From NCBI RefSeq assembly GCF_032460525.1, contig NZ_CP135963.1, positions 2,914,001-2,978,000 of the forward strand: 64,000 nt of DNA, read 5' to 3'. The position numbers and the translations under genes are program-made. The notes beneath the pieces were generated by a model that worked only from the letters and a program-made list of their open reading frames with translations, was not told where the DNA came from and did no database searches. This document shows positions 29,623 to 63,007 of this stretch, one piece after another. Source of the DNA: Geodermatophilus sp. DSM 44513. GTDB taxonomy: Bacteria > Actinomycetota > Actinomycetes > Mycobacteriales > Geodermatophilaceae. Positions within the stretch are counted from its first letter, which is position 1; each line of letters begins with the position of its first letter.

Positions 29623-30663
29623 TCACAGCGGGCGGACGGCGGCGGTGACCGAGCGGGAACCGCCGCTCCAGGTGGGCAGCAGGACCATCTTCACGCCCAC
29701 GCCGCCGGTGACCACGACGCGGACGTCGTCGGCGGACGCGGCCACCCGCAGCTCGTCGGCGGCGTAGGCCGGCACGCCCGCGCGGAAGGCCACGGACGGC
29801 GCCCACGCCTGCAGCAGCGCGCTGCCCTCGGCGAACAGGTGTCCGGCGATCCGGTCGGCGCCCCAGCCCTGCTCGCCCAGCAGCGTGGCCGGCTCCGGCG
29901 GCAGCAGCAGGAACTGCTCGCCGCGCCCCGCCCGGGACGGGTCCCCGGCCGCCAGCGCCAGCCCGGCCATCGCCGCCGCGGCGGGGCCCAGCACGGACGG
30001 CGGCTCGCGGTAGCCCTCCCCCGGCAACACCTCGACCAGCCCGCCGGCGGCGAGCACGGTCACCGCGTCGACGTCCACCCCGAGCCCGCGGCGCTGGGCC
30101 AGCGACGGCAGCGGGCGGGCCGCCTCCGCCGTGCAGCAGCCGTACTTCGCCGGCGAGCCGATGGTCGCCATGTCGGTCAGCCCGGCCCGCGCGCCGCCCG
30201 CCCCGGCCAGCGCCAGCGACACCGCCCGGCCGACCGCGGCGTTCACCGGGTTGCCGGTGCCCAGCCCGCCCGCGCCCGACGTCATGCCGATCCGGCGGCC
30301 CACCGGCCCGTGCACCAGCACGGCCACCGCCGGCCCGCCGGTCGTCGTCGTGACGCCGAGCAGGTTCACCTCCGGCCGCAGCGCCGTCCGGCACGCCGCG
30401 ACCACCACCGGCAGCGCGGCCGCCGGGCACCCGGCGAGCACCGCGTACCAGGCCACGCCGCGCACCGTGAGCTCACCGGACAGCGGCGGCACCGGCCCCA
30501 GGAAGGCGTCCGGGTCGGCGACGCCGGCCAGCACCGCCGCGAGCCGGGCCGCCGTCGGCGGCACCACGGGCAGCCCGTCGCCGTACCCCGCGGCGAGCAG
30601 GTCGAGGAGCACCGCGGCGGGGTCGGCGTCCTCGCCGACCAGCGGCAGGTCGGCCACGGTCAC
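29623..30663 (-). CDS. UGSC-associated protein, paralogue B
   Basis: A 346-residue protein of a family I cannot name. It shares with the protein at 30660-31688 and with the C-terminal domain of the selenoprotein at 54688 the phrases GYGDGLPVVPPT, NAAVGRAV, ATIGSPAKYG and a glycine-rich end (VTGGVGVKMVLLPTWSG). It lacks the GPHNVNDHG element of the other two. The GTG start overlaps the upstream TGA (GTGA), so it is the last gene of the coupled selenoprotein operon. I infer that it works with the UGSC domain in a complex or pathway. Cysteines of possible interest are in KYGCCTAE. Confidence 0.65.
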   Translation of the reverse strand: MTVADLPLVGEDADPAAVLLDLLAAGYGDGLPVVPPTAARLAAVLAGVADPDAFLGPVPPLSGELTVRGVAWYAVLAGCPAAALPVVVAACRTALRPEVNLLGVTTTTGGPAVAVLVHGPVGRRIGMTSGAGGLGTGNPVNAAVGRAVSLALAGAGGARAGLTDMATIGSPAKYGCCTAEAARPLPSLAQRRGLGVDVDAVTVLAAGGLVEVLPGEGYREPPSVLGPAAAAMAGLALAAGDPSRAGRGEQFLLLPPEPATLLGEQGWGADRIAGHLFAEGSALLQAWAPSVAFRAGVPAYAADELRVAASADDVRVVVTGGVGVKMVLLPTWSGGSRSVTAAVRPL

Positions 30664-31688
30664 CGGCGGACGGGGACGGCCCGTGACACCGCCGCCGTCG
30701 CCCCGAACGACGGGATCCACACCGAGTGCTTCCCCGCTCCCCCGGCGACCAGCACGTGCAGCATCTCCGGGCCGGTGCTCACGGGGTAGGCGTCGCCGTC
30801 GGGCCGCACGCCCCAGTCCTCGAACTGCCGCTGGTTGGCCTCCGACACGTGCGACACCGGGATCCGCGCCCGCTCCCACAGCGCGTCGCGCACCGCCTCG
30901 GCGCTCCACCCGTCGCGGGCGAACGTCGCGGCGTGCTCCGGGCCGAGCACCAGGAAGTGCGGGCCCTTGACGTAGACGTTGTTCGACCCGGGCTGGGCCA
31001 TCACCCCGGCGATGGTGAGCAGCAGGTCCCGGGCCGTCGTCCCGCCGTGGTCGTTGACGTTGTGCGGCCCCTCGCAGGCCGCCACCGTCACCACCGACTC
31101 CCCCGGCGCGAAGCCGCGGCGCACCGAGAACGGCGGGAACGGGCTGTCCTCCTCGTTCTCCCCGAAGCAGAAGGAGTACTTGGCCGGCCCGCCGTGGGTT
31201 GCCCGGTCCATGACGCCGGGCCGCGCGCCGCCGACGTGCGTGGTCACCAGCTGCACCGCCCGGCCGATGACGGCGTTGGCCCGAGTGCCCTGGCCCAGGC
31301 AGTTGGCGCCGGAGTTGATGCCGAGTGCGGTGCGCACCGGGCCGTTGACCACCACCATCGGCGCGCACGGATGGGTCGTGGCCAGCACGCCGTGCAGGTT
31401 GTACTCCGGCGCCTGCAGCGCCCGGACGGCGGCGAGCACCACCGGCAGGTCGCCCGGGCGGCAGCCGGCCATCACCGCGTTGGCCGCCAGGCTCTCCCGG
31501 GTCGGCACCAGCCCGGACGGCGGCAGCGGCCCCAGCTCCAGGTCGACGCCCTCCAGCGCGGCCAGCGCCGCCTCGACCCGCGCCGGCGTGGGGGCGACCA
31601 GCGGCAGCCCGTCGCCCCAGCCGCGGCGGTGCGCCTCCTCCTGCCAGGTCTCCTCGGTCACCCCGGGCAGGTCCAGCAGCGCGGTCAC
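30660..31688 (-). CDS. UGSC-associated protein, paralogue A
   Basis: A 342-residue protein whose whole length matches the C-terminal domain of the second selenoprotein. Shared signatures are GWGDGLPLVAPT near 24-35, AANAVMAGC, GINSGANCLGQGTRANAVIGRAV, DRATHGGPAKYSFC, EGPHNVNDHGGTTA, YVKGPHFLVLGPEHA and a final AGGAGKHSVWIPSFG. The many Gly, His, Asn and Cys residues suggest an enzyme, but I know no characterised member. It starts at GTG 31688, overlapping the stop of the selenoprotein gene. In the second locus the same domain is fused directly to the UGSC module, so physical association is likely. Confidence 0.7.
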   Translation of the reverse strand: MTALLDLPGVTEETWQEEAHRRGWGDGLPLVAPTPARVEAALAALEGVDLELGPLPPSGLVPTRESLAANAVMAGCRPGDLPVVLAAVRALQAPEYNLHGVLATTHPCAPMVVVNGPVRTALGINSGANCLGQGTRANAVIGRAVQLVTTHVGGARPGVMDRATHGGPAKYSFCFGENEEDSPFPPFSVRRGFAPGESVVTVAACEGPHNVNDHGGTTARDLLLTIAGVMAQPGSNNVYVKGPHFLVLGPEHAATFARDGWSAEAVRDALWERARIPVSHVSEANQRQFEDWGVRPDGDAYPVSTGPEMLHVLVAGGAGKHSVWIPSFGATAAVSRAVPVRR

Positions 31689-33097
31689 GCCCGCCCCCGC
31701 GCCTCGTCGGCCAGCCGCAGCAGGTCGCCGGCCGCGCCCTCGACCCGGCCGGCCAGCTCGTCGGCGGTCAGCCCGCCCACCGGGTGCGGGACGACGAGCA
31801 GCCGCGGGCTCACCCGCCGCGCGCGGGCCTGCGCCTGCACCAGCGGCAGGAACGTCTCGGTCACCACCAGCGGTGCCACGACGCCGCGCCGTTCCAGTTC
31901 CACCGAGTCGTGGAGACTCCACGACGAGCACGAGCCCTAGTCACCGACCGCCACCAGCACCACCTTGAAGCGCTGGGCGAGCCAGTCGATCTGGTCGGGG
32001 TCGGCCGCCACGGAGGCGCTCTCCTTGGCCGCGAGGCCCAGCTCCGGCAGCGCCCAGTGCGCCTGCAGCCGCTCCCCGAGCCCGCGCAGCAGCTCGGTGG
32101 CGTTCGGCTTGGAGTTGGTGAACAGCGCCACGTCGGTCCACGCCGCGGTGCTCGCGGCCACGGCGTCCGCGCCGGCCGGCTCGGGCAGCACGCCGTGCGT
32201 GGGGTCGACGACCTGCAGCGACCCGGCACCGGCGGCCAGCACCGCCACCGCGGCCTCCCCCGCCGCACGCCCGTCCGCCTCCGCGGCGGCCAGCGTCCGC
32301 TCCGCCCCGGACCGCGCGTCGCCGGCGACCAGCACGCCGGCCGACGGCACCAGCCGCCCGTCGGCGTCGGCGGCCAGCCCGTCGACCAGCGCCTCGGGTC
32401 CGCGGCGGCCGACGAACGGGAACACGCCCGCGACCGCCATCTCCCGCTCCCCGTCGGCGGTGCGGACGGCGACGCCGGACAGCACGCCCTCGCCGCGCAG
32501 CGCGGTCACCGCCGCGCCGGTGAGCACCTCGACCCGCTCCGCCGCCGCCAGCGCCCGGTCCCGGGCCGCCGACCAGCGCGGCTCGCCGGGGGCCAGCACG
32601 GTCACCGCCGAGGCGTGCCCGGCGAGCTCGAGGGCCTCGGTCGCCGTCCACTCGTCGTCGCCGACGACGGCCACCGGGCGGCCGCGGAACAGCGGCCCGT
32701 CGCACGCCGCGCAGGTGGAGAGCCCGCGGCCGGTCAGCTCCGCCTCCCCCGGCAGCCCGAGCCGCCCGGGTGACAGGCCGGCCGCGACCACGACGACCCG
32801 GGCGGTCACCTCGCCCGCGGACGTCGTCAGCCGCGCCGGCGGGCCGAGCTGCACGCGGGTCACCTCGGCGTACTCGAGACGCACCCCGGCCGCCTCGGCG
32901 TCTGCGGTGAGCGACGCCGTCAGCGCCGGGCCGGTGCCGCCGGAGTGGTCGTGCAGCGTGCTCAGGTTGACCAGCTGCCCGCCCGCGGCCAGTCGCTCGT
33001 AGGCCACCACCCGCAGCCCCCGCTGCGCGGCGACCCGCGCCGCGGTCAGCCCCGCGGCACCGGCGCCGACCACGGCGACGTCCCAGTCGGCGCTCAC
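31685..33097 (-). CDS. Thioredoxin-reductase-like / UGSC selenoprotein fusion, Sec encoded by TAG
   Basis: A 470-residue product if the in-frame TAG at 31939-31937 is read as selenocysteine (U387). Residues 1-290 are a thioredoxin-reductase-like flavoprotein: FAD motif GAGAAG (11-16), redox pair C129-A-A-C132 (CAACDG), and a late GDARSG; the NAD(P) glycine motif is altered (VVGDDEW). Residues 295-470 are a UGSC domain with FTNSKPNATELL, then VGD-U-G-S-C (387-390), SSWSLHDSVELERRG and VVPHPVGGL. A stem-loop starts 11 nt after the TAG, as in a bacterial SECIS. The GTG start overlaps the preceding stop. Without readthrough, two unrelated-looking fragments result. Reduction of the Sec centre by the fused flavoprotein is inferred. 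Confidence 0.82.
31907..31925 (-). promoter_or_regulatory. Candidate bacterial SECIS element 1
   Basis: Read on the minus strand, GTCGTGG-AGTCT-CCACGAC is a perfect 7-bp stem with a 5-nt loop, beginning exactly 11 nt after the TAG codon. The fdhF SECIS of E. coli has a similar stem and the loop AGGUCU, also 11 nt after UGA as I recall it. The element lies inside the coding sequence, as bacterial SECIS elements do, and would recruit SelB. Confidence 0.72.
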
Positions 33098-50247: not shown

Positions 50248-51393
50248 CTACCTGCGCTGGTCGAACCGCCGCTCGAACACCGACTCGGCGATCCGGTTGC
50301 GCAGCATCTCCAGCGAGCCACCAGCGATCATCCAGCCGCGGGTGCGGCGCAGGCAGTACTCGACCAGCGAGTCGGTGCTGTAGCCAAGCCCGCCCATGAC
50401 CTGCAGCGCCTCGTTGGCGCACTCGAAGCCGGCGGTGTTGCAGGCCAGCTTGGCCACCGAGGTGTCGTAGGCCGAGGGCAGCCCGTCGTCGGCGCTGCTG
50501 GCCGCCTTGTACAGCAGCAGCTGGGCGGCCTCGAGCTTCACGGCCATGTCCGCGAACTTCCACTGCAGGCCCTGGAACTCGCACAGCGCCTTGCCGAACT
50601 GCTCCCGCACGAGGGCGTGCTCGCGGGCCTCGTCGTAGGCGTAGCGGCCCAGGGCCAGTGCCCGGGCGGAGTTGCCGATCCGCTCCACGTTGAACCCGGA
50701 GATCTGCTTCTTGAAGCCGCCGGGGCCCAGCAGCAGGTTCTCGGCGGGGATCCGGCAGTCCTCGAAGACCAGCTCGGACCACTCCTCGCCGCTCATGTAC
50801 TCGTGCTTGGCGCCGACGGTGAGGCCCGGCGTGCCCCGCTCGACGAGCACCGAGCCGATGTTGGCCGTGCCCGGGCCGAACCGGACGTAGACCAGGTAGA
50901 GGGTGGCGTCGGGGCTGTGCGTCCCGTAGATCTTGCTGCCGTTGACGACGTACTCGTCGCCGTCCCGGACGGCGGTGGTGCGCAGCTCGGTGGCGGCGGA
51001 GCCGGCCTCGGACTCCGACATGCCCAGCGAGATCAGCTTCTCCCCGGACAGCAGCCCGGGCAGGAACCGCTGCTTCTGCTCCGGGGTGGCGTACTCGGCC
51101 AGCGTGCGGATCGCACCGAAGCTGCCGGCCTGCACGATGTCGGCTGCCTTGGGTGAGGCGGCGGCGACCTCCTGGATGGCGATGACGGCGTCCATGAGCG
51201 AGGCGCCCTGCCCGCCGTCCTCCTCCCGGAGCGTGAGGCCCAGCAGGCCGTTCTTGGCCAGCTGCCGGGCGACGTCCCAGGGGTAGCCGCGCTGGTGGGC
51301 CAGCTCCACCGCGGAGTCCCGCAGCTCCGAGCGGGCGAAGTCACGCACCGCGGCGGCGAACGCCCGCTGGTCCTCGTCGAGCCGGAAGTCCAT
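50248..51393 (-). CDS. Acyl-CoA dehydrogenase
   Basis: A 381-residue full-length flavoenzyme. Helical N-terminal domain (MDFRLDEDQRAFAAAVRDFARSELRD), middle domain (ISLGMSESEAGSAATELRTTAVRDGDEYVVNGSKIYGTH) and C-terminal domain with REQFGKALCEFQGLQWKFADMAVKLEAAQLLLY and ALQVMGGLGYSTDSLVEYCLRR. At the usual EGT catalytic site the sequence reads AGGS (WMIAGGSLEML), so the base must be elsewhere or the enzyme differs. ATG 51393 is supported by homology. It leads a two-gene unit with the lyase. Confidence 0.88.
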   Translation of the reverse strand: MDFRLDEDQRAFAAAVRDFARSELRDSAVELAHQRGYPWDVARQLAKNGLLGLTLREEDGGQGASLMDAVIAIQEVAAASPKAADIVQAGSFGAIRTLAEYATPEQKQRFLPGLLSGEKLISLGMSESEAGSAATELRTTAVRDGDEYVVNGSKIYGTHSPDATLYLVYVRFGPGTANIGSVLVERGTPGLTVGAKHEYMSGEEWSELVFEDCRIPAENLLLGPGGFKKQISGFNVERIGNSARALALGRYAYDEAREHALVREQFGKALCEFQGLQWKFADMAVKLEAAQLLLYKAASSADDGLPSAYDTSVAKLACNTAGFECANEALQVMGGLGYSTDSLVEYCLRRTRGWMIAGGSLEMLRNRIAESVFERRFDQRR

Positions 51394-51454: not shown

Positions 51455-52984
51455 TCAGTCCTCGACCTCGAGCTTGACCTTCTCCGCCTCGGCGCCGATG
51501 AGCCGCCGGCGGACCAGCCGCCAGAGGCCGCCGCCGAACATCACCACCAGCGCGAGGGCCCAGATGGCGATGGCGATGGGGCTGTCGAGGAAGTAGCCGA
51601 GGTCCCCGCGGCTGAGGAACATGCCCTCGCGGAAGTGCTTCTCGATGAACGGCCCGAGCACCAGGCCCACGATGAGCGAGGCCATCGCGAAGTCCAGCTT
51701 GCGCAGCAGGTAGCCCACCGCGCCCATGACCACCAGCACCCAGACGTCGAGCATGCTGCTGCGGGTGCTGAAGGCGCCCAGCACGGCGATGACCAGGATC
51801 CCGGGCATGAGCATGCTCTTGGGGATGCGCAGCAGGCTGACCCAGACCCCGACGAGGGGCAGGTTCAGGACCAGCAGCATGACGTTCGCGACGTACATCG
51901 ACGCGATGAGGCTCCAGAAGATGTCCGGCCGCTGCTCGATGAGCAGCGGGCCGGGCTGGATGCCCTGCACGACCATGGCGGCCAGCATCAGGGCGAAGGT
52001 GGCCGAGAACGGCAGCCCGAGGGACAGCAGCGGCACGAGGCTGCCCACCGCCGCCCCGTTGTTGGCCGCCTCGGGGCCGGCGACCCCCTCCACCGCCCCG
52101 GTGCCGAGCTCGTCGCGGTGCTTGGAGACGGCCTTCTCCAGCCGGTAGGAGCTGAAGCTGGACAGGGTGGCCGACGGCCCGGGGAGCAGGCCGAAGAAGA
52201 ACCCGAGCGCCGAGCCGCGCGCCCACGGCGCCCAGGCCCGCCGCCAGTCCTCCCGGCTGGGCATCAGCTCGCGCAGCCGCACGCTGCGCACCTTGGCCGC
52301 GCGGTCGGGGTCCTCGACGATCATCAGGATCTCGGCGAGGCCGTAGAGCCCGACGGCCACCGGGACCAGCGAGAAGCCGAGCGCCAGCTCCTGGAAGCCG
52401 AAGGTGAAGCGGAAGACGCCGGTGATCTGCTCCACGCCGACCGTGCCGATCATGATGCCGAGCACCATCGGGAAGTAGCCGCTGGCCGGGCTGCCCCCGG
52501 CCACCCGGGCCAGGACCAGCAGCCCGCCGCCGGTCAGGGCGAGGTACTCCGCGGGGCCGAAGAGCAGGGCGAACCGGGCCACCAGTGGCGACACGAGGGT
52601 GACCAGGACGATCGCGATGGTGCCGGCGATGAACGAGCCCACGGCCATGATCGACAGCGCCGGCCCGGCCCTGCCCTGCCGGGTCATCTCGTAGCCGTCG
52701 ATGGCGGTCACCACCGACGCCGACTCCCCGGGCATGTTCATCAGCACCGACGTCGTGGACCCGCCGTACATGGACCCGGCGTAGACCCCGGCGATCATGA
52801 TCAGCCCGGCCGCCGGCGGCAGCGTGAACGTCAGCGGCAGGATCAGCGCGGCACCGGCCACCGGGCCCAGACCCGGGAGCACCCCGATCGCCGTCCCGGC
52901 CGCCGCGCCGACGAACGCGGCGACCAGCAGCTCCGCGGTGAAGACGAGCTCGAGCCCGTACAGCAGCCCCTCGACCGGGTTCAC
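51455..52984 (-). CDS. tctA: Tripartite tricarboxylate transporter, large permease (TctA)
   Basis: A 509-residue membrane protein with about twelve helices. Typical motifs are GVLPGLGPVAGAALILPLTFTLPPAAGLIMIAGVYAGSMYGGSTTSVLMNMPGES near the start and GLLPGPSATLSSFSSYRLEKAVS in the middle, the duplicated TctA signature. It would import a carboxylate with TctB and TctC encoded just upstream. GTG 52984 overlaps the tctB stop. Confidence 0.92.
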   Translation of the reverse strand: MNPVEGLLYGLELVFTAELLVAAFVGAAAGTAIGVLPGLGPVAGAALILPLTFTLPPAAGLIMIAGVYAGSMYGGSTTSVLMNMPGESASVVTAIDGYEMTRQGRAGPALSIMAVGSFIAGTIAIVLVTLVSPLVARFALLFGPAEYLALTGGGLLVLARVAGGSPASGYFPMVLGIMIGTVGVEQITGVFRFTFGFQELALGFSLVPVAVGLYGLAEILMIVEDPDRAAKVRSVRLRELMPSREDWRRAWAPWARGSALGFFFGLLPGPSATLSSFSSYRLEKAVSKHRDELGTGAVEGVAGPEAANNGAAVGSLVPLLSLGLPFSATFALMLAAMVVQGIQPGPLLIEQRPDIFWSLIASMYVANVMLLVLNLPLVGVWVSLLRIPKSMLMPGILVIAVLGAFSTRSSMLDVWVLVVMGAVGYLLRKLDFAMASLIVGLVLGPFIEKHFREGMFLSRGDLGYFLDSPIAIAIWALALVVMFGGGLWRLVRRRLIGAEAEKVKLEVED

Positions 52985-53523
52985 AGGAACAGCGCCCCGA
53001 TCGCACCGGTCGGGCCGAGCAGGCCCTCGGGCAGCCGCACCCCGAGCAGCTCCACGAAGAACGCCGAGATGGCCACGCCGATCGCCGTCCCGTAGAGGAC
53101 GTTGCGCGGCCACGACCGGGTGCCCAGCACGGCGAGCGCGGCGATGACGAACAGCGAGGAGGCGATGTACTGGCCGAGGAACTGGTACAGCGCGACGAAC
53201 GCGACCAGGGCCGCCGACACGAGCACCACGGAGCGCCGCTGCCGACCCGCCGGGAACCGGACGTCGCCGCTGACCTGGTCGGTCAGCAGGGCCTCGGCGA
53301 TGGTCAGCACGGACACCACGACCATGCCGATGCCGACGACGAGCGGGAACACCCCGGCGCCGGGCCGGTCCTGGGTGCCGAAGGACAGGGTGGACCAGGT
53401 GTACCAGCTGAACCCGGCACCCAGCAGCAGGCCGAGCACCCCGGCGATCACCCGGCCCCTGCGCTTGCTGTCCAGGGCCGGCCGCCGGCCTCGGTCGGCC
53501 TCGGTCACGTCCTGCCGGCTCAT
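52981..53523 (-). CDS. tctB: Tripartite tricarboxylate transporter, small permease (TctB)
   Basis: A 180-residue protein with four hydrophobic helices (VIAGVLGLLLGAGFSWYTW, VFPLVVGIGMVVVSVLTIAEALL, VVLVSAALVAFVALYQFLG, VLYGTAIGVAISAFFVELLGV) and the usual FGTQDRPGAGVFP after the first one. It is the small membrane subunit. It lies between tctC (74 nt) and tctA (overlap). Confidence 0.88.
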   Translation of the reverse strand: MSRQDVTEADRGRRPALDSKRRGRVIAGVLGLLLGAGFSWYTWSTLSFGTQDRPGAGVFPLVVGIGMVVVSVLTIAEALLTDQVSGDVRFPAGRQRRSVVLVSAALVAFVALYQFLGQYIASSLFVIAALAVLGTRSWPRNVLYGTAIGVAISAFFVELLGVRLPEGLLGPTGAIGALFL

Positions 53524-53597
53524 GCGTTCACTTCCCGTGGTCGGTCGCGGGCCCGGCCGCGGTCCCGGGAGGGACCGCGGCCGGGCCTGTCGTCGGG

Positions 53598-54602
53598 TCA
53601 GGCGTCGGACTCCTCGATCTCCGCGAAGACCGGGCGGTAGTCGTCGATCTCCTGCGCCAGGTCGTCGAGCTGGATCGGGTCGACCACGTAGCCGTTCTCC
53701 TCGGCGAACTGCCGGAACTCCTCGGAGGTGACGATGCGCTCGGAGACCTCCACCAACGTGTCGCGGCACTCCTCGTCGAGGTCCGTGGGCGCGATGGTGT
53801 AGTAGGCAGCGGGCATCGAGACGCCCTCGTACTCCTCGCCGATCAGGGGGAGGTCGGGCAGCAGCGGGTACTCCTCGTCGTAGAACACGCCCAGCGGCCG
53901 GAGGTCCCCGGACTCCACGAAGCCCTGCATCGAGGGGTAGAAGGTCCCGATCGACTCGATCTCCCCGGAGACCGCCGCGGTGAGCGCCTCACCGCCGCCC
54001 CCGCTGAAGGGCACGCGGTTCAGTTCCACGCCGGTGCGGATCTCGAGCAGCTTGGCGTTGGTGTCCGGGGTGCCGCCGGCGCCCGAGGTCGCGTAGCCGA
54101 TGCCGTTCGGGTCCGCCTCCGCCGCGGCGATGAACTCGTCGAGGGTCTGCCACGGCGTGTCCGCGTTGACCGCGAGCACGACGGGGATGTCGCCGAGCTT
54201 GACCAGGGGCGTGTAGTCCTCCGTCGTCTGGAACGGCAGGTCGGGGTTGAGCGCGGCCTGGTTGGCCAGCGCCTGGTGGTTGGACAGGCCGAGGGTGTAG
54301 CAGTCCGGCTGTGCCGTGACGATCCCCGTCGTGCCGATCGTCGCCGCGGCGCCCTCGCGGTTCTCCACGATGACCTCGACGCCGAGCTCCTCGCTCAGCT
54401 GGCTGGCGAACTGCCGGCCGATCGGGTCGGTCGAGCCGCCCGTGCCGTAGGGGATGATGTAGGTGATCGGCCGGTTGGGCTGCCAGGCCTCCCCGTTCCC
54501 CCCCGCGGCGGCCTCACCACCGCCTCCGCTGTCGCTCCCGCAGGCGACCAGGGCCAAGGCGCTGGTGATCGCCAGCGCACCGCGCAGACCGCGCTCGGAC
54601 AT
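53598..54602 (-). CDS. tctC: Tripartite tricarboxylate transporter, binding protein (TctC/Bug)
   Basis: A 334-residue solute-binding lipoprotein: lipobox LVAC (cysteine near residue 21), a Gly/Ala linker, then the Bug fold with WQPNRPITYIIPYGTGGSTDPIGRQFASQLSEELGVEVIVENREGAAATIGTTGI. The ligand pocket motifs match carboxylate binders, but the compound is not readable. It is a mid-operon gene following the second selenoprotein by 85 nt, suggesting its ligand feeds this pathway. ATG 54602 follows GAGGAG. Confidence 0.9.
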   Translation of the reverse strand: MSERGLRGALAITSALALVACGSDSGGGGEAAAGGNGEAWQPNRPITYIIPYGTGGSTDPIGRQFASQLSEELGVEVIVENREGAAATIGTTGIVTAQPDCYTLGLSNHQALANQAALNPDLPFQTTEDYTPLVKLGDIPVVLAVNADTPWQTLDEFIAAAEADPNGIGYATSGAGGTPDTNAKLLEIRTGVELNRVPFSGGGGEALTAAVSGEIESIGTFYPSMQGFVESGDLRPLGVFYDEEYPLLPDLPLIGEEYEGVSMPAAYYTIAPTDLDEECRDTLVEVSERIVTSEEFRQFAEENGYVVDPIQLDDLAQEIDDYRPVFAEIEESDA

Positions 54603-54687: not shown

Positions 54688-56346
54688 TCACCCATCGGGG
54701 GCCCCGCCGGGTCGTGGCGCGGTCACGTCGACCGTGACCGCCTCGGTGGTGCCGAAGGTGGGCACCAGCACCGAGTGCTTGCCGGGACCGCCGGCCACCA
54801 TGACCAGCAGGCTGTCCGGACCGTCCAGCACCGGGACGACGCCGTCGCCCGGCACGCCCGCGAAGACGTGCGGCGCGGTGCGCCGGTAGCGGTCGAGGTT
54901 GCCCGCGGAGACGCCGGCCAGGCTCACCCGCGCCCGCGGGTGGGCGTGCACCGCCTCCTGGATGCGGCGCCGGTCGTACCCGTCGCGGGCCAGCACCTCG
55001 GCGTGCTCCGGCCCGAGCACCAGCAGCACCTGCCCCCGCAGGTAGAGGTTGTTGTGCCCCAGGTTGGCCAGCGTGCCGGCGATCGCGGTCAGGATGCCGG
55101 CGGCGTCGGTGCTGCCGTGGTCGTTGACGTTGTGCGGGCCCTCCCCGCCGTGGACCGTCACGGCGCCGGCCGGCCCGCCGCCACGGGCCTCGTGGAAGGT
55201 GGCGAAGGGGGAGGCCGCGGCGTTCTCGGCGATGCAGTAGGCGTACTTGCCCGGCGTGCCGTGGGTGGCACGGTCGGTCTCGCCGGGCCGCGCCTCTCCG
55301 ATGTTCTGCAGCACCAGCCGCAGCGCCCGGCCGACACCGGCGTTGGCCCGGTTGCCCTGCCCGAACACGTTGGCCCCGGCGTTGAAGCCAAGCTCGGCCA
55401 CGACCGGGCCGTGCACGACGACCAGCGGGGTCACCGGGTGCGTGGTGGTGGTCAGCGCCTGCAGGTTGAACCGCGGCTCGAGCACCGCCTGCACGGCCGC
55501 GACGACCACCGGGGTCAGCTCGGGCGGGCACCCGGCCATGACCGCGTTGGCCGCGACCGCGGCCACGGTGGCGCCCCGGTTCGACGGCGGGACCAGCCCC
55601 AGGACCTCGCCGGCGTCCCGGCCGGTGGCCGCGACGGCGCGGGCCACCAGCTCCTCGGTCGGGGGCACCATCGGCAGCCCGTCGGCCCAGCGCCGCTGCT
55701 CGGCGAAGGAGAGGAACGCGAGCACGTCACCGGGGGCCTCGTGCACGGTGGCGGTCGGCCCGGTGGTGGGCACGGTGGTGGTGGGCACGGTGGTGGTGGG
55801 CCCGGTGGCGACCTCGTCGGGCGGGGTGAGCAGCGCCGCGGCCACGGCGTCGACCGCGGCCGCGAGGCGGTCGTCGAGCTGCTCGGGCCGCACGCCGCCG
55901 ATGGGGTGCGCCACGGTGACCACGGCGAGGGACTCCAGCCCCTGCTGGCGGGCCACGGCGCGGGCCAGCGGGAGGAACGGCTCCGTGGCGACCATCACCG
56001 TCGGGATCCCTCGGCGCTCGAGCTCGGCGGAGTCGTGGACACTCCACGACGTGCAGGAGCCCTAGTCACCGACGCCCACGATCGCTGCGTCGAAGTTGCG
56101 GAACCGGTCGAGGACCTCCGCGGCGAAGGGGTGCGAGGAGTTGGGCTTGTCCGCTCGCACCGGCTCCTGGGTGCCGAAGCGGACGGCGAGGTGGCGGCCG
56201 AGCTGCCCGACCACGTGCGCGGCGTTGGGCTTGCCGTTGTCCAGGACCGCGATCCGCGCCCCGGCCAGCGAGGCCGCCCGCGGCGACGTGGCCGCCCGTG
56301 GCGTCGGCGGCGCGCTGCCCGACGGGTCGACGATCCGCACGTCCAT
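54688..56346 (-). CDS. UGSC selenoprotein fused to a large uncharacterised domain, Sec encoded by TAG
   Basis: A 552-residue product if TAG at 56064-56062 is read as selenocysteine (U95). Residues 1-180 form the UGSC domain: LDNGKPNAAHVVGQL (compare TNSKPNATELL in the other gene), VGVGD-U-G-S-C (95-98), TSWSVHDSAELERRG and TVAHPIGGV. A Thr/Pro/Val linker follows (about 192-208), then a 340-residue domain that matches the separate protein at 30660-31688 (WADGLPMVPPT, GANVFGQGNRANAGVGRA, RATHGTPGKYAYC, EGPHNVNDHGSTDA, GGPGKHSVLVPTFG). A stem-loop starts 11 nt after TAG. ATG 56346 has GGAGG upstream. Directly downstream is tctC. A standard gene caller would report two short genes. Confidence 0.82.
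55755..55810 (-). repeat. Short repeats coding a TTTVPTTTVPTTGP linker
   Basis: Units close to GGGCACGGTGGTGGT recur in this segment and encode the flexible Thr/Pro/Val linker between the UGSC domain and the large domain. The linker supports the view that these are two folded units joined by fusion. Confidence 0.75.
56032..56050 (-). promoter_or_regulatory. Candidate bacterial SECIS element 2
   Basis: On the minus strand GTCGTGG-AGTGT-CCACGAC gives the same 7-bp stem as at 31907, with a loop differing at one base (AGTGT against AGTCT), again exactly 11 nt after the TAG. The codons in the stem are largely the same (SWS.HDS), so part of the match follows from protein conservation; the perfect pairing in both is still notable. 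Confidence 0.7.
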
Positions 56347-56664
56347 CCTGGGCGACCTCCGCTCGACGGGGAGGCGGTGACCCCTGGGGCCCCCGCCGGT
56401 CTGTGCCAGCGCGCGATGGACGCTATAGGATGTATGTGATGTGGACAACAACGTTCACCAAGTCGTGATCGTGCCGGGCGGGCGCCGCGGACGGCTGGCG
56501 CCTCCTCCTCGCGGGTGTGGCCGCCGGACCCCGGCCTGGCCGTATCGTGTATAGGGCCGGTGGCCGGACGGCGCGTCGACCGGGCGCGTGGCGGGTCGCC
56601 GGATCGGCACGCACCCGGGGACGACCGCGGAGCGGACGCGCACGACGACGAGGACGGTGCCGGC
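56347..56664. promoter_or_regulatory. Divergent control region between selenoprotein 2 and the GntR gene
   Basis: These 318 nt contain no gene. CTATAGGATGT at 56423-56433 (plus strand) matches the core of the shared motif (CTACAGGATGT) at 10 of 11 positions and overlaps TATAGC, a likely -10 box for the selenoprotein gene (with TTGTTG 18 nt before it). A weaker related sequence, ATCGTGTATAGGG, lies near 56544-56556 on the GntR side. Binding of the FCD-GntR protein to one or both is a reasonable inference. Confidence 0.55.
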
Positions 56665-57336
56665 ATGACCGAGACGCAGCGGGCTCACGGCGGGGCGGCG
56701 CAGGGGCTCACCGGCCCACCCCTGAGCAAGACCGAGTACGTGCTGCAGCGGCTGCGCGAGGACATCGCCAGCGGCGTCGTCGTGCCCGGGACGTCGCTGC
56801 GCCAGAGCGAGATCGCCACCCGCTACGGGGTCAGCGCGACCCCGGTGCGGGAGGCGCTGCGGCTGCTCGAGGCCGGCGGGAGCATCAGCTACGCGCCGCA
56901 CCGCGGCGCGACGGTCCGCGAGCTGTCCCCCGAGCGGGTCCGCGACGTCTACCTGCTGCGCGCCGAGATCGAGGCGCTGGCCACCGCGGTCGCCTGCGAG
57001 CGCATGACCGACGAGCAGTTCGCCCGCATCGAGGCCGTGCACGAGGAGATCCGGGGCTACCGCGGCGGGGACGGCGAGGAGCTCGCCGTGCTCAACCGGC
57101 GGCTGCACTTCACGATCTACCACGCCGGGTCCGAGCTGATCGCCTCGCACGCCTCCAGCCTGTGGTCGCTGTTCCCGCCCCGGGTCACCATCTGGGCCGA
57201 CCCGGAGGCCGCGGAGGCGCTGGCCGCCGACCACGACGGGATCATCGCGGCGCTGCGCGCGCGGGAGCCGGTGCTCGCCCAGCAGCGCGCCCGCGACCAC
57301 GTGCTGCACGCCGCCGCGCTGCGCGAGCACCTCTAG
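56665..57336 (+). CDS. GntR family regulator, FCD type
   Basis: A 223-residue regulator. The winged HTH (LSKTEYVLQRLREDIASGVVVPGTSLRQSEIATRYGVSATPVREALRLLEAGG, residues about 20-72) is followed by an all-helical FCD domain (VYLLRAEIEALATAVA, LNRRLHFTIYHAG, ADHDGIIAALRAREPVLAQQRARDHV) with His and Asp metal-ligand candidates, which commonly senses organic acids. It is divergent from the selenoprotein/Tct operon and is the best candidate to control it. ATG 56665. Confidence 0.9.
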   Translation: MTETQRAHGGAAQGLTGPPLSKTEYVLQRLREDIASGVVVPGTSLRQSEIATRYGVSATPVREALRLLEAGGSISYAPHRGATVRELSPERVRDVYLLRAEIEALATAVACERMTDEQFARIEAVHEEIRGYRGGDGEELAVLNRRLHFTIYHAGSELIASHASSLWSLFPPRVTIWADPEAAEALAADHDGIIAALRAREPVLAQQRARDHVLHAAALREHL

Positions 57337-61323: not shown

Positions 61324-62099
61324 CGGCCCCGCCACCGCGGTGCCCGCTTCTCGGCGAAGGCGCGCACGCCCTCGACACGGTCCTCGCTGGAGTACGGGTC
61401 GGGCCGGACGTCCAGCCGCAGCGCCGCGGCCGGTGACTGGTGCAGGCCGGCCTGGATGACCGCCTTGTACCGCCGGATGGTGAGCGGGGCGTTGGCCAGC
61501 AGGGTGCGCACGTAGCCCTCGGCGGTGTCGGCGAGCTCGGCTGCGGGCACGACGCGGTTGACCAGGCCCCAGCGCTCGGCCTCCTGCGCGGAGACGGTGC
61601 GGCCGGTGTAGAGCATGTCGTAGGCGATGCCCAGGGGCACCAGCCGCGGCAGCACCACCGAACCGAAGTTGGCCCCCATCCCGCGCAGCGCCTCGGGCAG
61701 CGCCAGCCGGGCGTGGTCGGCAGCGATGCGGACGTCGCAGGCCATCGCCAGCTCCAGCCCGCCGCCCATGGCCGCGCCGTTGAGCGCGGCGACCGTGGGC
61801 TTGCGGCACTCCAGGACCACCTCGAAGGGGTTGCGCAGCGGCTGGCGCATCGGCGAGGGCGGGGGCCCGCCGGCGGCGTCCTGCCCGGCCAGCTCCTTGA
61901 GGTCCCGCCCGGCGGAGAACGCCTGGTCGCCGGCGCCGGTGACCAGCACCGCCCAGACGTCGTCATCGGCGTCGAACCGGACGAACGCCTCGACCAGGCC
62001 GGCCATGACCTCCGCGCCGAGGGCGTTGCGCCGCTCCGGCCGGTCGATGGTGACGTAGCCGACCCGGTCGCGGACCTCGACCCGCAGTCCCTCGCTCAC
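61320..62099 (-). CDS. Enoyl-CoA hydratase
   Basis: A 259-residue crotonase with both catalytic glutamates in place: AAMGGGLELAMACDVRIAAD and ARLALPEALRGMGANFGSVVLPRLV, and the oxyanion loop DQAFSAGRDL. It would hydrate enoyl-CoA to 3-hydroxyacyl-CoA, the substrate of the enzyme encoded next. GTG 62099 overlaps the preceding DUF6282 stop. Confidence 0.9.
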   Translation of the reverse strand: MSEGLRVEVRDRVGYVTIDRPERRNALGAEVMAGLVEAFVRFDADDDVWAVLVTGAGDQAFSAGRDLKELAGQDAAGGPPPSPMRQPLRNPFEVVLECRKPTVAALNGAAMGGGLELAMACDVRIAADHARLALPEALRGMGANFGSVVLPRLVPLGIAYDMLYTGRTVSAQEAERWGLVNRVVPAAELADTAEGYVRTLLANAPLTIRRYKAVIQAGLHQSPAAALRLDVRPDPYSSEDRVEGVRAFAEKRAPRWRGR

Positions 62100-63007
62100 G
62101 CGCCGGCCTCCGCGGTGGCCGCGGGTGCGTCGAGGGCGAGCGCCGCGGTCGGGTTGTGCACCGTCATCGCCTCGACGTCGGCGTGGGTGAACCCGCGGGC
62201 CCGCATCGCCTCGACGTACTGCTGCAACCCGACCACGGGCGAGACGTTGTGCGCCTGGCCGAAGTCGGTGGCCATGACCGTGCTGTCGACGCCGACGGTG
62301 CGCACGGCCTCGGCGATGCGCTCCAGCGGCACCTCGTCGCTGGTCGGCAGGGTGACGGCGAAGACCCGCTCGAACCAGACGCCGCCGAGCTCGGCGAGCT
62401 GGAGCTGGTCGTCCAGGCCCAGGCCGACGCAGGAGTGCTCGGGGTGGGTGACCAGCACGTTGGGCACGCCGCGCCGGCGGGCCTCAGGCACCACCCGCAC
62501 GATCTCGGCCGGCCCGATGTGCCCGGTGGCCAGCGTGGCGCCGGCGGCCGCGATCAGGTCGAGGACCTGGCAGACGTCGGCGGTGGGACGCCCCTCGTCG
62601 TCCAGGACGCTCAGGCCCGGGCCCTCGATGCTGCCCAGCCGGGCGAGGTTGCCGCTGGCGATGCCCTTCTCCGCGGCGTGCCGGACCTGGTTGGCCGCGG
62701 TGATGGTGGGCAGCCACACCACCCGGCCGCCGAGCCTGAGCACCGTGTCCACCGCGTGCGGGTTGATGCCGCCGGTGGCCTGCACGTTGAGCACGACGCC
62801 GCCGAGGACCTGGGTCTCGGTGGCGTGCTCCTGGGCCATCGTGGCCCGGGCGGCGGTGACGGTGTGGTGGCTCTTGAGCACCACCGCGCGGTAGCCGGCC
62901 TCGTCCACGGCGCGGGCCAGCTCGGAGTCGGTCATCAGCCGCGGGATGACGTCGGGGGCGGTGTGCACGTGGGTGTCCACCAGGCCGGCGGGCCAGGTGC
63001 GGTTCAT
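62096..63007 (-). CDS. DUF6282 amidohydrolase-like protein
   Basis: A 303-residue TIM-barrel-like protein of the DUF6282 family. LVDTHVHTAPDVIPRLMTD carries the HxH metal motif, and further histidines are in KSHHTVTA, TGHIGPAE, VTHPEHS and the aspartate in MATDFGQ. This set fits a metal-dependent hydrolase of the amidohydrolase group, acting perhaps on a lactone or amide. ATG 63007 follows GAGGAGG. It is in one operon with the hydroxyacid dehydrogenase upstream and the hydratase downstream. Confidence 0.82.
   Translation of the reverse strand: MNRTWPAGLVDTHVHTAPDVIPRLMTDSELARAVDEAGYRAVVLKSHHTVTAARATMAQEHATETQVLGGVVLNVQATGGINPHAVDTVLRLGGRVVWLPTITAANQVRHAAEKGIASGNLARLGSIEGPGLSVLDDEGRPTADVCQVLDLIAAAGATLATGHIGPAEIVRVVPEARRRGVPNVLVTHPEHSCVGLGLDDQLQLAELGGVWFERVFAVTLPTSDEVPLERIAEAVRTVGVDSTVMATDFGQAHNVSPVVGLQQYVEAMRARGFTHADVEAMTVHNPTAALALDAPAATAEAGA

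Follow-up and report, generated by a model that had tools for sequence, protein, structure and literature searches.

How is a gene read when codon 95 of its 552 codons is TAG, and what would its product do? Both questions are raised by a locus in a stretch of 64,000 nucleotides from Geodermatophilus sp. DSM 44513, the whole of which is called the window here. The gene sits between a divergent regulator gene and a set of transporter genes (Table 1). Its TAG is the sole internal stop of the frame and is followed by 457 codons up to the TGA. On the minus strand the first base of the TAG is 56064 and the last is 56062, and the translated flanks are VGVGD and GSCTSWSVHDSAELERRG. For the ATG at 56346, 3 orthologs have Met at the equivalent place.

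Table 1. Features of the two UGSC loci and of the transporter module in the window.
Feature	Position	Strand	Remarks
UGSC-large-domain fusion gene	54688..56346	-	552 codons, ATG start, TGA stop, TAG at codon 95
In-frame TAG, putative Sec95	56062..56064	-	frame read-out, site alignment
UGSC domain PF24696, residues 5-173	55828..56334	-	Pfam match
Large C-terminal domain, residues about 205-552	54691..55734	-	without Pfam or NCBIfam match
SECIS-like hairpin, fusion gene	56032..56050	-	7 bp, 5-nt loop AGUGU, 11 nt past the TAG
First-locus gene, thioredoxin-reductase-like and UGSC domains in frame	31685..33097	-	
In-frame TAG, first-locus UGSC gene	31937..31939	-	
SECIS-like hairpin, first locus	31907..31925	-	loop AGUCU
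Stand-alone large-domain paralog 1	30660..31688	-	its GTG overlaps the UGSC stop
Stand-alone large-domain paralog 2	29623..30687	-	overlaps paralog 1
FCD-GntR regulator ORF, divergent	56515..57336	+	true start probably further inside; kept in 3/3 orthologs
TctC solute receptor	53598..54602	-	lipoprotein-like N-terminus (by eye); synteny
TctB subunit	52981..53532	-	start assumed; synteny
TctA subunit ORF	51455..53113	-	start uncertain; synteny
Acyl-CoA dehydrogenase family gene	50248..51393	-	closes the module; conserved in each of the 3 orthologs

The N-terminal part of the protein matched PF24696 (E 4.6e-47; 160.8 bits against a cut-off of 25) and NCBIfam NF041046 (128.8 bits against 125). 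Since both profiles scored above their cut-offs and the UGSC site holds a TAG here, in the place of UGA or Cys in relatives, the sequence assigns the protein to the UGSC (seleno)protein family. The motif of the fusion is of the UxxC type, with Cys98 as a candidate for the resolving thiol. The best matches of a predicted model of the UGSC domain were Rossmann-like chains, and in this Rossmann-like domain Sec95 is predicted to be flanked by a beta strand on one side and a helix N-terminus on the other. Besides PF24696, the Pfam search with the fusion protein gave only a sub-threshold match to PF00702. For residues of about 205 to 552 the Pfam and NCBIfam searches listed no match, and the large domain had no confident match to any solved fold. 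It is probably the domain named 'Unknown_1' in the 2008 GOS paper (PMC2398784).

An earlier note on this DNA had described a fusion of UGSC with a large domain, a TAG in mid-frame near 56062 and the same structure at an independent second locus. The domain limits and the codon number in Table 1 confirmed the first two points. The third was borne out by the degenerate site pattern GTNGGNGANTAGGGNWSNTG, which matched the window at 56054-56073 and 31929-31948, both on the minus strand, and gave no match in 100 shuffles.

The machinery for decoding is present. The genome (4.63 Mb, one contig) harbors exactly one tRNASec above the Rfam threshold (RF01852, 64.2 bits, cut-off 47), with the anticodon CTA (CUA) according to ARAGORN. 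The tRNA gene sits between selD and selA, with selB next; selD (379 bits), selA (415 bits) and selB (285 bits) all exceed the NCBIfam cut-offs.

The hairpin downstream of the TAG has a 7 bp stem (8 bp when the closing A-U is counted) and a 5-nt loop. Across 21 sequences (17 distinct) 98.5% of the cells pair and 3 of the 8 pairs were changed on both sides, a covariation reached by 0 of 500 shuffles; the structure was derived from the same 21 sequences, and the double changes mostly separate paralog groups. For 4 of 20 sequences (L142, L143, L148, L150), an alternative fold of the 57-nt stretch had a lower energy. All three UGSC genes of the genome and a formate-dehydrogenase-like gene have a matching hairpin 11 nt downstream of their TAG. 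The loop is AGUGU or AGUCU in the UGSC genes and GGUCU in the formate-dehydrogenase-like gene, with equal spacing and stem length. The full rule (TAG, a stem with 6 or all 7 of its pairs, an RGUSU loop) applied to 2 of the 253 TAG triplets of the window and to none in 100 shuffles. As judged from sequence and covariation, the hairpin is a SECIS-like element at fixed spacing.

The TAG is present in all four fusion orthologs (own genome, G024, G060, G062). Pairwise dN/dS values were 0.14-0.17 past the TAG (438-443 codons) and 0.21-0.37 before it (95 codons). We concluded that the sequence past the TAG is under purifying selection, and that this is also the case for the 5' part. The ten codons right after the TAG showed one codon change, compared to 4-13 in each of the next nineteen ten-codon blocks. 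Part of this low change is due to protein constraint, since the active-site motif lies there too.

The use of TAG is not restricted to the window. PF24696 matched three genes of the genome, two in the window and one outside, each with exactly one TAG. The formate-dehydrogenase-like gene (L183 1918; G000:C1 near 353.5 kb), whose pieces match TIGR01591 below the cut-off, has its TAG in the context ARI*HSATVPGLGATFGRG, which we take to be the Sec site of formate dehydrogenase. The remaining formate-dehydrogenase-like matches of the genome had no internal stop. Among 112 genomes of the family, 54 contained UGSC, with 95 matches in total: 72 had one TAG, 23 had no stop, and none had TGA or TAA. When 32 family loci were read out, among them 12 of the 23 stop-free matches, 20 had TAG at the Sec site and 12 had a codon for Cys; a weak second match in L133 (26% identity), which reads TCG, was set aside from this count.

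The anticodons followed the codons. tRNASec(CTA) was present in 48 of the 48 family genomes with a TAG-UGSC gene (8 and 40, read in two batches). It was also found in G031, G032, G061 and G108, whose sole UGSC gene is stop-free, and which have Cys codons in the two that were read out (G031 and G032). In seven genomes of three genera (g5-g7; L013-L018, L021), all of them fragmented assemblies, UCA was the anticodon of the best tRNASec match, the only one covered by this reading. None of these seven contained a UGSC gene with TAG; UGSC was present in two of them (G066, G072), with Cys codons at the site. With seven such genomes in three genera, the change between UCA and CUA can be placed inside the family. 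One further genome (G059) harbors two tRNASec genes, with the anticodons UCA and CUA (L012 1169-1263; L207 57-152), and one SelB match above the cut-off. An ORF that looks transposase-like by eye is located about 0.3 kb from the UCA gene.

Relatives from outside were read from 80 loci, the top-ranking part of a longer list, so that the shares are not population rates. UGSC sites were found in 76 of these loci, with 101 matches: TGA in 93, TGC in 4, TGT in 2, TAG in 1 and CAG in 1, the last being a poor alignment in L119. The four loci without a UGSC match (L075, L092, L094, L100) were not counted, and a few TGA matches have a divergent motif, e.g., one of three in L090. The single TAG belongs to Blastococcus (L096), which, like the Geodermatophilus entry P0023, is a close relative; hence, outside the family TGA accounts for 93 of 100. 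Haloarchaea (Natronomonas, Natrialba; L059, L103) have UGSC-large fusions in which Cys replaces Sec.

The genome has a tRNASec that matches the TAG and a conserved hairpin after the codon; therefore, the TAG of the fusion gene is very likely read as selenocysteine. The earlier note had called decoding the simplest explanation, and this view was strengthened by the tRNASec(CTA) beside selD, selA and selB, the covarying hairpin, the purifying selection past the TAG and the agreement of codon and anticodon throughout the family. Two other readings of the TAG were considered. If it were a true stop, a 94-codon piece would be made and a downstream ORF would restart in frame, e.g., at GTG 55998. There are standard-code ORFs on either side of the TAG, and the first 21 homologs are 416-431 aa long with 77-79% query coverage, as if automatic callers had started them past the Sec codon (seen in P0002). 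However, among the 95 UGSC matches of the family 72 carry a single TAG and no other stop occurs, purifying selection acts on the 5' part too, and the hairpin and the matching tRNASec also speak against this reading, so that we regard a true stop as highly improbable. Even less credit is due to an amber suppressor that inserts pyrrolysine or another amino acid. ARAGORN does name the gene 'tRNA-Pyl' on account of the anticodon CTA, but the tRNA scores as tRNASec, the sole PylS match of the genome reaches 23.1 bits against a cut-off of 178.15 (exceeded in 1 of 14 control genomes), and all 12 stop-free family members that were read out have Cys at the site. For selenocysteine, SelB would very likely deliver Sec-tRNASec to the UAG, competing there with RF1. 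It likely binds the hairpin that starts 11 nt past the TAG, and the read-through product would be a two-domain protein of 552 residues.

We also analyzed which proteins accompany the UGSC domain. At the first locus of the window it follows, in frame, a thioredoxin-reductase-like domain (TIGR01292, E 6e-47, below the equivalog cut-off). At a third locus (L042 7254-9235, minus strand) a thioredoxin-like segment with CPTC (PF13098, E 0.0077, below the cut-off) is fused in frame to a large domain; a separate TAG-UGSC gene comes after this fusion, the stop of the one overlapping the start of the other. Of the 80 relative loci, 76 had both the large domain and UGSC, and four had the large domain only, three of them cut by a contig end. 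Protein P0054 has two large domains in tandem and resembles what a fusion of the two first-locus paralogs would give. Matches to neighbors were counted by tblastn with selected neighbor proteins and have no background rate: thioredoxin-reductase-like matches lay near 7 of the 80 loci, in 5 of which (L050, L066, L089, L096, L099) the match ends less than 200 bp upstream of UGSC on the same strand, and TctC-like matches lay near 33. Betaproteobacteria carry many TctC-like genes, and the TctC count, therefore, means little.

The earlier note had placed the fusion gene directly upstream of a TctCBA carboxylate transporter and opposite an FCD-GntR regulator, and this setting recurred in 3 of 3 orthologs. 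The order GntR-FCD, fusion, TctC, TctB, TctA and acyl-CoA dehydrogenase was kept in all of them, even where the flanking genes differ (L247). A DUF6282 family gene at 62096-63007 (minus strand) of the window is conserved in L246 and L248.

The acyl-CoA dehydrogenase of the module was considered as a 3-sulfinopropionyl-CoA desulfinase, and this candidate was rejected. The protein scored 290.8 bits with NF042439 (cut-off 600), and in an alignment to 5af7 the places of Arg84 and Gln246, which we take to be the desulfinase residues of that enzyme, are occupied by Asp and Glu. Where such enzymes usually carry their C-terminal catalytic Glu (YEGT) it has AGGS, and a Glu stands where isovaleryl-CoA dehydrogenase has its base. 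The acyl-CoA dehydrogenase does not tell what the substrate of the fusion enzyme is.

A hint at the function came from profile comparisons. The UGSC part matched the NCBIfam profile of glycine reductase selenoprotein B weakly and below the cut-off (TIGR01917, E 0.0013), and PrdB likewise weakly (NCBIfam, E 0.021). By hhalign, UGSC aligned to GrdB-like sequences with 72% probability (E 3.3e-5, 73 columns) and to PrdB-like sequences with 83% probability (E 8.4e-6, 67 columns), Sec on Sec in both cases; these E-values hold for one target, and the alignments are short and below the usual certainty. The fusion protein had no match to PF07355, and neither had any protein of the genome. The large domain showed no relation to five GrdE-like neighbors, assigned by position and ending (hhalign probability 0.1%). 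PF09338, the profile of the pyruvoyl subunit GrdE/PrdA, gave no match in the genome and none in the controls, so that the zero says little about the genome. In other Actinomycetota, 13 full-length PF07355 loci were read through TGA, e.g., TST[U]GTGTRCGSTLAKELERAGIPT, and 11 shorter loci gave [U][P/L]xC followed by SV or AV. The short genes (L168-L181) match only the C-terminal part of PF07355, and the 11 of 14 that read through TGA form a PrdB-like selenoprotein group. We regard the similarity of the UGSC profile to GrdB and PrdB as a lead, not as membership.

By analogy with glycine reductase, the fusion product may be a Sec enzyme that takes electrons from thioredoxin and reduces a carboxylate brought in through TctCBA. 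This is our best guess at the function, though somewhat less likely right than wrong. The selenolate would attack a substrate held by the large domain and expel a substituent, as the profile similarity to GrdB/PrdB suggests. A thiol, for which Cys98 of UGSC is a candidate, would then resolve the Se adduct; this joint step of attack and resolution is likewise somewhat less likely than not. A thioredoxin reductase/thioredoxin pair could then return Sec to the selenolate, which is consistent with the fusions at two other UGSC loci and with neighbors elsewhere, and the reaction product would presumably enter CoA-thioester catabolism. The complete statement, i.e., Sec decoding by tRNASec(CUA), likely with a SelB-bound hairpin, in a thioredoxin-fed carboxylate reductase, appears to us evenly balanced between right and wrong.

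The main rival to the carboxylate reductase is a plain thiol-redox role, in which a Sec enzyme would reduce a disulfide, sulfoxide or peroxide with UxxC as a thioredoxin-fed redox pair and no Se-carbon adduct would be formed; the decoding of the TAG would be unchanged. UGSC is indeed a UxxC motif, the thioredoxin- and thioredoxin-reductase-like fusions fit this role equally well, and the GOS paper expected redox activity (PMC2398784). On the other hand, the profile relation points to GrdB/PrdB, and UGSC regularly pairs with a large conserved domain (both present in 76 of 80 loci), here within a conserved transporter/acyl-CoA-dehydrogenase module. Furthermore, some members lack the Cys at +3 (P0092 and L085 read GTS). 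A thiol-redox role appears to us a serious minority view. The carboxylate reductase can also be extended to a wider proposal that is rather unlikely as it stands: UGSC and the large domain would be a widespread non-clostridial counterpart of glycine/D-proline reductase, which forms a Se-carbon adduct with a small imported carboxylate, with the large domain replacing the pyruvoyl subunit, thioredoxin reductase resetting Sec, and the whole enzyme moved from UGA to UAG in Geodermatophilaceae.

Earlier papers already describe UAG-Sec UGSC proteins in Geodermatophilaceae as well as the fusion of UGSC with Unknown_1. According to PMC5330540 (see also PMC8124441), UAG-type Sec coding with formate dehydrogenase and UGSC-motif selenoproteins was described by Mukai et al. 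2016. The same source reports tRNASec(CUA) in three Geodermatophilaceae genomes and a bacterial SECIS after a UAG (PMC5330540). The UAG-Sec of this source is the same as here, with tRNASec CUA and TAG at the Sec site of formate dehydrogenase and UGSC proteins. There is no difference in principle; the present analysis adds a counted match of codon and anticodon over 112 genomes and UCA relatives from the same family. The GOS selenoproteome paper of 2008 reports a UGSC/Unknown_1 fusion (PMC2398784) which, like the one here, joins UGSC to a conserved domain of unknown function, probably the same domain. It is unlike the window gene in that Sec is encoded by TAG here, and a thioredoxin-like fold was expected in that text, whereas our model is Rossmann-like. 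Among the listings and passages that the literature search returned, we found no paper that assigns a function to UGSC. New here are the similarity of the UGSC profile to the Sec domain of glycine/D-proline reductase, the thioredoxin-reductase-UGSC and thioredoxin-large-domain fusions, the conserved GntR/fusion/TctCBA/acyl-CoA-dehydrogenase module, and the occurrence of UCA and CUA tRNASec within one family. The family thus provides a clean natural case of UAG-read Sec across one bacterial family, with UCA tRNASec in relatives and both types in one genome. Gene callers tend to truncate such genes at the TAG, and the Sec enzyme is then missed in annotation.

In the alignments, GrdB/PrdB and UGSC show a similar stretch after Sec, including a segment of the E-x-x-GIPT type. 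They differ in that GrdB/PrdB have PF07355 and a pyruvoyl subunit, while UGSC gave no PF07355 match and has the large domain as partner, in which no pyruvoyl subunit can be recognized. For glycine reductase, a review states that Sec presumably forms a Se-carbon bond and cleaves it again, with thioredoxin as the electron source, and it argues against thioredoxin as the donor for D-proline reductase (PMC10298544). For the fluoroacetate operon of Cloacibacillus, GrdB-like proteins are proposed to act on fluoroacetate (PMC10838667). This operon has other partner proteins and another transporter than the UGSC module; like it, it combines GrdB-related proteins with a transporter, and a small carboxylate is proposed as substrate (PMC10838667).
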